DNA from: Candidatus Poseidoniaceae archaeon
Lineage (GTDB): Archaea > Thermoplasmatota > Poseidoniia > Poseidoniales > Poseidoniaceae
Direction of reading: 5' to 3'
Assembly: GCA_024958795.1 (NCBI GenBank)
Contig: JANXHP010000056.1
Location: 1-34,471, forward strand
DNA: 34,471 bases
Part shown: piece after piece, positions 1,154 to 33,353 of the stretch
Position numbering within the stretch: the stretch's first letter is position 1
How the letters are laid out: each line of letters starts with the position of its first letter
Translations under genes and position numbers: made by a program
The notes under the pieces: model-generated
The model's input: only the letters and a program-made list of their open reading frames with translations
Told to the model about the DNA's origin: nothing
The model's database searches: none

Positions 1154-1275
1154 CTTCCAATGAGAGTTGTAAATAATGTGTCTTAGGACTATTTATTGGC
1201 TATTTTTGAAGAGGATTAAGTGCGGTATAACCCGATGCACTCATATATGAATGGTCAGTCGGCGACCTGTTCACT

Positions 1276-1383
1276 ATGAAGCGAGGTTCACGTGCTTGGA
1301 AGAAAACTGGAAACCAGCGGTGGAAGTGGCGACGCAAGAAGCTACGACGTCGTAAGCGCGCTCGCCGACAAGCCAAGGCTTGA
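1276..1383 (+). CDS. rpl41e: Candidate ribosomal protein eL41, 35 aa
   Basis: Hand translation MKRGSRAWKKTGNQRWKWRRKKLRRRKRARRQAKA*; C-terminal part resembles eukaryotic/archaeal eL41 (compare [25 protein letters not shown]); below the size cutoff of the supplied ORF track. Confidence 0.72.
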   Translation: MKRGSRAWKKTGNQRWKWRRKKLRRRKRARRQAKA

Positions 1384-18100: not shown

Positions 18101-18270
18101 ATCGTTCCCTTTGCGGCGAGGGTAAAAAAGGATGATGCGAGGAATAGCTGAATTTAGAAAATAAAATTTGTAAATAATTGAAAAAATAGGTCATGTTTTT
18201 ATGTAATTATTTGGCGGATAGAATATTCAAGAACCACGCTACTAAGCCGCATTTAGAAACCGAACTCCTC

Positions 18271-18300
18271 ATATAGGGGAGGTTGGTCGGAGGGTTGCTT
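18271..18300 (+). promoter_or_regulatory. Conserved 30-nt element upstream of the uL3 operon (copy A)
   Basis: ATATAGGGGAGGTTGGTCGGAGGGTTGCTT; 26/30 identical to 33065-33094. Confidence 0.6.
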
Positions 18301-18416
18301 AAAGGTGAGTAGCCAGACACACAGGACAATCCCATGAGGATTCCTATAGTCTTGTTTCCCAACAGTGGAAATGGGGCGCAGTGTCACGGCTTCTCCTACC
18401 CTGAGAGCCCTCGTAT

Positions 18417-18432
18417 GCCCCTTCGGTGGGGC
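18417..18432 (+). other. RNA hairpin in the uL3 leader
   Basis: GCCCC-TTCGGT-GGGGC, about 35 nt upstream of the uL3 start. Confidence 0.45.
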
Positions 18433-18466
18433 CAATTCGTTGTAACAAAAACTGGAGGAATCCCCA

Positions 18467-19498
18467 ATGGCAAAGAGAAGTCACCCACGACGTGGATCGA
18501 TGGCGTTTAGCCCGCGTAAGCGGTCTGCACGTACGTTTGGACATGTAAAATCGTGGCCTACAACCGATGCGAGCGAAGTAAGAGTGCAAGGATTTGCTGG
18601 CTGGAAAGCTGGTATGACACACATTCTTTCTCGTGATTTAAACCCAACAAGTCCATCTGCAGGTCAAGAAGTCCGTGTTCCAGTAACCGTTGTTGAATGT
18701 CCTAAGATGAGAATTCTTGGCGTTCGAGGATACGAGATGACTCCATACGGTAAGAGAGCAGTCGGTGAGGCTTGGTCTGATGCCAGTCAAATTTCCGATG
18801 CTTTCCCAGAATTATTCAAGCGCCTACCAGAGCGTAAAGAGCACGATGCAGATAAGCACTTTGAGAATCTAAATAATGCAGATCTATGTGAAGTGCGCCT
18901 AATCGTTGCAACACAACCTTCTACAGTTTCAGGAGTTCCTACAAAGGTTCCTGATGTAATGGAGATGGGTCTTGATGGTGGCGATTTCTCAGAACAACTT
19001 CAATTCGCTAAGGAAAAGTTGGGTGAAGAGTATTCTTTCAAAGAAGCATTTGAATTCGAAGAAGGAAAAGGTGGATTAACCGACATCGTCGCTGTAACCA
19101 AGGGTTACGGATGGCAAGGTGTTATCAAGAGATTCGGTGGAAAACTTCTATCTCACAAAAACTCAAAGAAGCGCCGTCAACATGGAAACATGGGTGCTTT
19201 CGGTGATGGATATGTCCGTAAGTCTATTCGTCAAGGTGGACAAACTGGATATCATCAAAGAACTGAGTACAACAAGCGTATTCTACGTGTATCAAATCCA
19301 GAGAAGCATTCAATCACTCCTGCTGGTGGATTCCTTCACTATGGTGAAGTGAAGTCCGATTATATTCTAGTTCATGGTAGCGTCCCTGGTCCTGCAAAGC
19401 GCTTGATTAGGTTCCGTGACGCAACTCGTGGTAGCGATAAGGCGCTACATGATTACGAGATTACCTATGTAAGTACAGCATCTAAGCAGGGGGTCTGA
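18467..19498 (+). CDS. rpl3: Ribosomal protein uL3
   Basis: AKRSHPRRGSMAFSPRKRS, GWKAGMTH, first gene of the archaeal S10-type cluster. Confidence 0.97.
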   Translation: MAKRSHPRRGSMAFSPRKRSARTFGHVKSWPTTDASEVRVQGFAGWKAGMTHILSRDLNPTSPSAGQEVRVPVTVVECPKMRILGVRGYEMTPYGKRAVGEAWSDASQISDAFPELFKRLPERKEHDADKHFENLNNADLCEVRLIVATQPSTVSGVPTKVPDVMEMGLDGGDFSEQLQFAKEKLGEEYSFKEAFEFEEGKGGLTDIVAVTKGYGWQGVIKRFGGKLLSHKNSKKRRQHGNMGAFGDGYVRKSIRQGGQTGYHQRTEYNKRILRVSNPEKHSITPAGGFLHYGEVKSDYILVHGSVPGPAKRLIRFRDATRGSDKALHDYEITYVSTASKQGV

Positions 19499-33036: not shown

Positions 33037-33080
33037 CTCACCTCCTTTAGAATAGGTTATCTTGATATAGGGGAGGTGAG
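33037..33080. repeat. 9-bp inverted repeat overlapping the 16S upstream element
   Basis: CTCACCTCC (33037-33045) and GGAGGTGAG (33072-33080), perfectly complementary, 26-nt spacer. Confidence 0.6.
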
Positions 33081-33094
33081 TCGGTGGCTTGCTT
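33065..33094 (+). promoter_or_regulatory. Conserved 30-nt element upstream of 16S rRNA (copy B)
   Basis: ATATAGGGGAGGTGAGTCGGTGGCTTGCTT; 26/30 identical to 18271-18300. Confidence 0.6.
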
Positions 33095-33353
33095 GCGTTG
33101 TGTAGAACGGCGTTGGCGGCTGAGTTCCTCGGAGCAATGACTGCCGCCATCCTCTGCATACGTGAAGCCGAAGCCATTGCGATTCCGAGAAACCTCCTGT
33201 TGGAGCAAGCTCGGGGTCAGGAAGGTGATCGAGATTATGACGTATTTTGTGCAAGAAGCTCAAGTGCATTATTTTCTCGCCAATTTTTTTAGGAACAGCA
33301 ATTCATTAAATTGAATACAGCGACAAGTAGCCCAAAGGATCGTAACAAGAGAA

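Follow-up and report, generated by a model that had tools for sequence, protein, structure and literature searches.

A probable core promoter class dedicated to ribosome and translation genes of the archaeal order Poseidoniales

In eukaryotes, the TCT initiator of ribosomal protein (r-protein) genes is an element of the core promoter confined to translation genes, while in bacteria the GC-rich discriminator associated with stringent control is a GC-rich melted region common to rRNA, tRNA and r-protein promoters. Amongst archaea, the stable-RNA promoters of methanogens contain box B, which resembles the TTGC at the predicted start site described below. In Halobacterium, TFB and TBP occur as paralogues, with multiple TFBs per cell as possible selectors of promoter classes (PMC3542263). 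The balance between rRNA and r-protein synthesis in archaea is poorly known at the level of transcription. A sequence-defined promoter class common to rRNA, r-protein, elongation factor and some tRNA genes would provide a direct handle on ribosome-gene transcription, and would yield predictions of the start sites, of a regulon and of a reader that can be tested. The Poseidoniales (marine group II archaea) are abundant ocean archaea for which we found no reported promoter map in open-access papers. Here we analyse an element that occurs in a 34,471-nt stretch of the genome of a member of this order (hereafter the window), which, from sequence comparison, very probably represents a class of core promoters that the Poseidoniales dedicate to their ribosome and translation genes.

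Copies of the element and layout of the promoter

A preliminary description of the window had drawn attention to a 30-nt element upstream of an r-protein operon (18271-18300) that recurs upstream of 16S rRNA (33065-33094). Both copies lie at these positions and align without gaps, with 26 of 30 nucleotides identical. Their distance from the genes, given as about 200-290 nt, measures 196 nt for the ATG of uL3 (18467) and 288 nt for mature 16S rRNA, which starts at 33353 according to Rfam SSU_rRNA_archaea. When up to 3 mismatches are allowed, the pattern derived from the pair has these two matches in the window and none elsewhere in it. As neither 100 dinucleotide-preserving shuffles nor reversed-pattern controls gave a single match, an origin of the pair by chance or as a repeat was rejected. 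The nearest named relatives of the uL3 protein in the window belong to records of 'Candidatus Poseidoniales archaeon'. The host genome (1.88 Mb in 146 contigs) contains five copies of the pattern, which precede 16S, uL3, 23S, eS19 and uS13, and none of the reversed control pattern; over 31 genomes the control had 0 matches, compared with dozens for the real pattern.

A sequence-only model built on the five copies in the host genome (R1) added sites at eS1, uS12, eL15, uL11-uL1 and, weakly, at 1243-1272 on the forward strand of the window; copies in the host genome also precede EF-1alpha and uS2. The window therefore has three copies rather than two, the third being a weaker one that the preliminary description had overlooked, 3 nt 5′ of a 35-aa ORF (1276-1383). 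A second model (R2) was derived from a 23-site alignment of pattern hits, with gene identity as no part of the input. The site at 1243-1272 is one of its 23 training sites, and because the model was made from pattern hits, there is some circularity in the E-values that R2 assigns to close copies. The features of the window are as follows.

1232-1272, forward strand: predicted promoter of the third copy, with CCGA, ATATA and a spacer containing GTCGG; predicted start G 1269 (R1 E 0.06, R2 E 9.8e-7)
1276-1383, forward strand: eL41 (aL41/eS32) gene, 35 aa, identified from its translation and a sequence match to eL41, and presumably driven by the third copy
18260-18263, forward strand: CCGA, upstream edge of the predicted uL3 operon promoter, in BRE position (-37 to -34 from the predicted start)
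18269-18275, forward strand: putative TATA box of the uL3 operon, TCATATA (ATATA near-invariant over 23 sites)
18276-18290, forward strand: conserved spacer of the uL3 operon promoter, GGGGAGGTTGGTCGG (consensus GGGGAGGTnRGTCGG)
18295-18300, forward strand: putative initiator TTGCTT, predicted transcription start G 18297 (TG invariant in 23 sites)
18297-18466, forward strand: 5′ leader of the mRNA from the uL3 operon, predicted to be structured, 170 nt (covariation)
18467-19498, forward strand: uL3 gene, first of the r-protein operon (Pfam Ribosomal_L3, E 8e-84)
33055-33094, forward strand: predicted 16S rRNA promoter, with upstream GG, TATA box TTGATATA, spacer GGGGAGGTGAGTCGG and initiator TTGCTT; predicted start G 33091 (R2 E 9e-10)

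The 23-site alignment is gapless in every site and reads CGAnnTnTTC-ATATA-nGGGAGGTnnGTCGG-nGGnTTGCTT. The G in its second column is invariant, as is GTCGG in the spacer (23 of 23 sites), and ATATA or ATAAA is held in fixed register 26 bp 5′ of the invariant G that we take as the probable start. The conserved unit reaches upstream beyond the 30-mer, since in 65 dereplicated uL3 loci conservation climbs abruptly at -38, at the edge formed by CCGA, to 1.9 bits per base from a level of about 0.3; this conserved CCGA (-38 to -34) is unlike the usual purine-rich BRE. Comparison of orthologous uL3 upstream regions across the Poseidoniales found the motif in register at all 78 loci with enough upstream DNA, with ATAAA replacing ATATA in one, and with the G located 165-172 nt from the ATG. 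An apparent exception (L235) was rejected, as the motif is there and the distance is shifted by a run of N. For most genes the predicted +1 G lies 1-50 nt from the start codon (7 nt at eL41, 15 nt at eS19), and it lies 5 nt 5′ of both tRNA genes (tRNA-Glu and tRNA-Pro), which leaves scant space for another start. The earlier suggestion of a start near TTGCTT can be narrowed to the G within TTGC, which is position 27 in the 30-mer; with this G as +1, the ATATA that had been proposed as TATA core falls at -26, in the usual position of archaeal TATA boxes, about 22-30 bp before the start. Sequence evidence of this kind supports the interpretation of the element as a core promoter in fixed register, consisting of CCGA, a TATA box, a G-rich spacer and TTGC with the predicted start.

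The motif contains GGAGGT, a core similar to a Shine-Dalgarno sequence, as might be expected if transcription started upstream of the motif and the motif worked in the RNA as part of a 5′ leader. This is extremely improbable, and we rejected it as a reading of the 30-mer, since the motif precedes tRNA genes, two of them by 5 nt, and rRNA genes, which are untranslated; it also has a TATA box in fixed register and its conservation ends at -38. A separate repressor or activator might instead bind the spacer (-21 to -7) as an operator, and block or aid the polymerase at an otherwise ordinary core promoter. The spacer is conserved as a specific sequence rather than for its GC content alone, with GTCGG unchanged over the 23 sites, it is absent at ordinary genes, and CCGA and TCGG form an imperfect dyad around the TATA box in many sites, all of which would suit an operator. 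However, its register to the TATA box and to the predicted start is constant to the base in the aligned sites, where operators usually allow shifts, and no candidate regulator gene was identified; we regard an operator as possible, if somewhat unlikely.

The composition of the spacer raises the alternative of a discriminator-like region, in which GC-rich melted DNA and a G at the start would give unstable open complexes, so that initiation tracks GTP or an alarmone, in the manner of bacterial rRNA promoters. The GC-rich stretch from -11 to -7 and the invariant +1 G accord with this, and archaeal promoters are typically A/T-rich at that position, in the proximal promoter element (PMC3542263). 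Composition alone, however, would not keep the exact sequence GGGGAGGTnRGTCGG, and we judge this alternative very unlikely. Control of transcription by alarmones is, to our knowledge, not an established mechanism in archaea, which also counts against it.

Gene specificity and taxonomic range

The targets of the motif were determined by running R2 to E 10 on four genomes and on the single-contig genome G043, and reading the downstream genes. Of the 65 sites examined (12 of 12 in G000, 12 of 12 in G003, 15 of 15 in G043, 16 of 21 in G027 and 10 of 13 in G022), 58 directly precede 16S, 23S, tRNA-Glu, tRNA-Pro, r-protein or EF-1alpha genes. Amongst R2 matches to E of about 0.2, translation genes account for 12 of 12 in G000, 12 of 12 in G003 and 13 of 15 in G043. 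The genome-wide search proposed in the preliminary description thus finds matches almost all at translation genes. Most gene identities come from Pfam, NCBIfam and PDB sequence searches, while eL37 and eS8 were named from their translations, without a library search. As the eL37 and eS8 genes lie in between, purF and SRP19 were rejected as targets, and two hits that seemed to lack a gene resolved to tRNA-Glu and tRNA-Pro. The remaining 7 of the 65 sites precede NDK (two), Sec61-beta (two, assigned by a family match under the Pfam cut-off), Rpb7 and FKBP, or represent one duplicated eL15 promoter; in another relative, NDK has an aIF5B-like ORF next in line. The sites before Rpb7, FKBP, Sec61-beta and NDK count against a dedicated class, as does a weak form of the motif at tRNA genes (see below). 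The second eL15 promoter in G043 (C1:455808-455846, L154) precedes an unrelated ORF at a distance of 2.5 kb upstream from the genuine copy, and is apparently a local duplication.

For ordinary genes, we sampled 20 evenly spaced 20-kb stretches of G043 (400 kb), which provided 198 first-gene upstream regions. A single one of these scores, that of eL15 (35.4), and the runner-up reaches 5.1, a gap of 30 bits. Random scattering in the genome, which according to the preliminary description would speak against a shared promoter, is therefore not what this 400-kb sample shows. Expectation maximisation (EM) yielded no spacer consensus in 190 ordinary upstream regions, and in ordinary upstream regions the sense counts of GTCGG and GGG[GA][AT]GG equal the antisense counts, without enrichment. 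A general promoter of the lineage was rejected on the basis of the 400-kb sample and the EM analysis. The 30 sampled tRNA upstream regions contain a degenerate form, with CCG and a TATA-like sequence followed by aGGC...TCG. The motif is graded, being strongest at rRNA and r-protein genes, weaker at EF-1alpha and a few tRNA genes, and absent at ordinary genes; given the weaker form at tRNA genes, the border with the general promoter is gradual there. All targets of the motif are genes that are highly expressed in most cells and tRNA promoters have a degenerate form of the same layout, as would be the case if the element were no more than the best version of the general promoter, found at the most expressed genes and devoid of regulatory meaning. 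We consider this unlikely, since ordinary first genes are without a trace of the spacer and are separated by the 30-bit gap in score.

In a phylum-wide sample, R2 matches were found in all 53 Poseidoniales, in 1 of 143 genomes of the phylum outside this order and in none of the 5 genomes from the sister order of the same class. A fuller sample of Poseidoniales has the motif in 88 of 88 genomes, with fewer and weaker matches in family f2 and just 2-5 in genus g4. The motif is undescribed in the open-access papers that we searched. Gene specificity, register and conservation in the order support the original proposal of a promoter shared by 16S rRNA and the r-protein operon.

The ORF downstream of the third copy in the window translates as MKRGSRAWKKTGNQRWKWRRKKLRRRKRARRQAKA, residues 1-33 of which match eL41 of solved archaeal ribosomes (E 0.0014). 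This gene, missing from ORF lists because it is short, came to light via its promoter, an example of how the motif helps to spot overlooked genes. The motif also precedes eL41 in G003, G022, G027 and G043, the gene being kept in at least 4 relatives. Just 3′ of eL41, at about 1402-1590, the window contains a probable intron-containing tRNA missed by ARAGORN, with the 5′ half GGGAGTATAGTATAGCTTGG and the 3′ end CCACCA, which by eye looks like tRNA-Trp with a C/D-box-like intron.

Other gene arrangements were observed at the targets. The 16S (window 33353) and 23S (L003) genes have a promoter copy each and are located on different contigs, which suggests that they are transcribed separately. The uL11 gene before uL1 (L014:1559-1837, also L093 and L145) encodes just 93 aa, which match the C-terminal RNA-binding part (profile positions 71-158 of 164), the N-terminal domain being missing; the promoter is directly 5′ of this short ORF in three genomes. 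The eS1 (S3Ae) gene (L011:1576-2556) encodes a C-terminal SAP domain (E 4e-13), an unusual fusion for an r-protein.

The uL3 leader, a second TFB and a proposed mechanism

Amongst 20 uL3 leader sequences from both families of Poseidoniales, 35 consensus pairs are 95.5% kept, and 15 of the 35 exhibit compensatory change with both sides altered; the covariation score was reached by 0 of 500 shuffles. Slid structures fall to at most 49% of pairs kept, a control somewhat in favour of the structure since this was taken from the same alignment. The single-sequence fold shows a modest gain over shuffled sequences (z -1.5), and Rfam gave no leader match to E 1 at positions 18200-18480. In the last helix, CCUC pairs with the GAGG contained in the GGAGG that precedes the ATG, and this helix appears, in the model, to sequester the Shine-Dalgarno site. 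The leader looks like a candidate autoregulatory r-protein leader, which would permit feedback by a protein of the operon. Its first stem includes the predicted +1 G, which counts in favour of the promoter reading.

Poseidoniales have two TFBs. The second, TFB2 (G000 C97:36804-37811, equivalent to L297:305-1312; 336 aa), contains TFIIB repeats and a zinc ribbon, is Arg-rich between the zinc ribbon and the first repeat, and scores well under the NCBIfam cut-off for canonical TFB. Orthologues (E below 1e-55) are present in about 78 of 88 Poseidoniales and in 0 of 143 other genomes of the phylum, where the best match outside the order (1.9e-54, 39% identity) is no nearer than canonical TFB. The motif and TFB2 co-occur at the level of the order. 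A correlation between loss of TFB2 and loss of the motif within the order was rejected, as exceptions of both kinds occur in a larger sample. In G082, 13 sites are found in the absence of TFB2, probably an effect of an incomplete assembly, and G240 encodes TFB2 alongside 2 sites. TFB2 is thus a candidate reader of the spacer only. More specifically, TFB2 might, through a diverged reader/linker and recognition helix, read the GTCGG spacer together with CCGA and so act as a joint switch for rRNA, r-protein, EF-1alpha and some tRNA genes, a tentative scheme that we think rather improbable. If it is correct, ribosome synthesis in an archaeon would have a general factor of its own, with tasks divided in a way that recalls eukaryotic polymerases I-III.

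In a dedicated promoter class, the reading that we prefer, TBP would bind the TATA box and a TFB the CCGA/BRE side, with the G of TTGC as the first transcribed base. The 15-bp spacer, which lies between the TATA box and this start, would be a sequence-specific part of the promoter; as it is lacking at ordinary genes, it would single out the genes for rRNA, r-proteins, EF-1alpha and some tRNAs, which would share strong, probably growth-linked transcription. The presence of the motif before rRNA, r-protein and other translation genes suggests that ribosome parts are probably made in step. The sequence itself, its fixed register, its specificity for these genes and its occurrence as a conserved feature inside the order but not beyond it are direct observations, from which we infer the start site, a spacer-reading protein and common regulation of the target genes.

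Comparison with known promoter systems

Bacterial control at the discriminator depends on composition together with ppGpp and DksA, whereas here the sequence itself is conserved. Compared with the TCT initiator, the Poseidoniales motif differs in sequence and position and retains a TATA box; it also covers rRNA and some tRNA genes, which are the task of other polymerases in eukaryotes. In contrast to the TFB and TBP regulons of Halobacterium, what is observed here is a co-occurrence of the motif and the order-specific TFB2. With the archaeal core promoter the motif shares a TATA-like box, about 26 bp before a predicted pyrimidine-purine start, and an upstream element located in the BRE position. 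For Sulfolobus and halophiles, the region from -12 to -1 is reported to be A/T-rich (PMC3542263). The Poseidoniales promoters differ from the archaeal core promoter in having a 15-bp conserved G-rich spacer confined to translation genes, and the novel features are this conserved spacer and its gene specificity.
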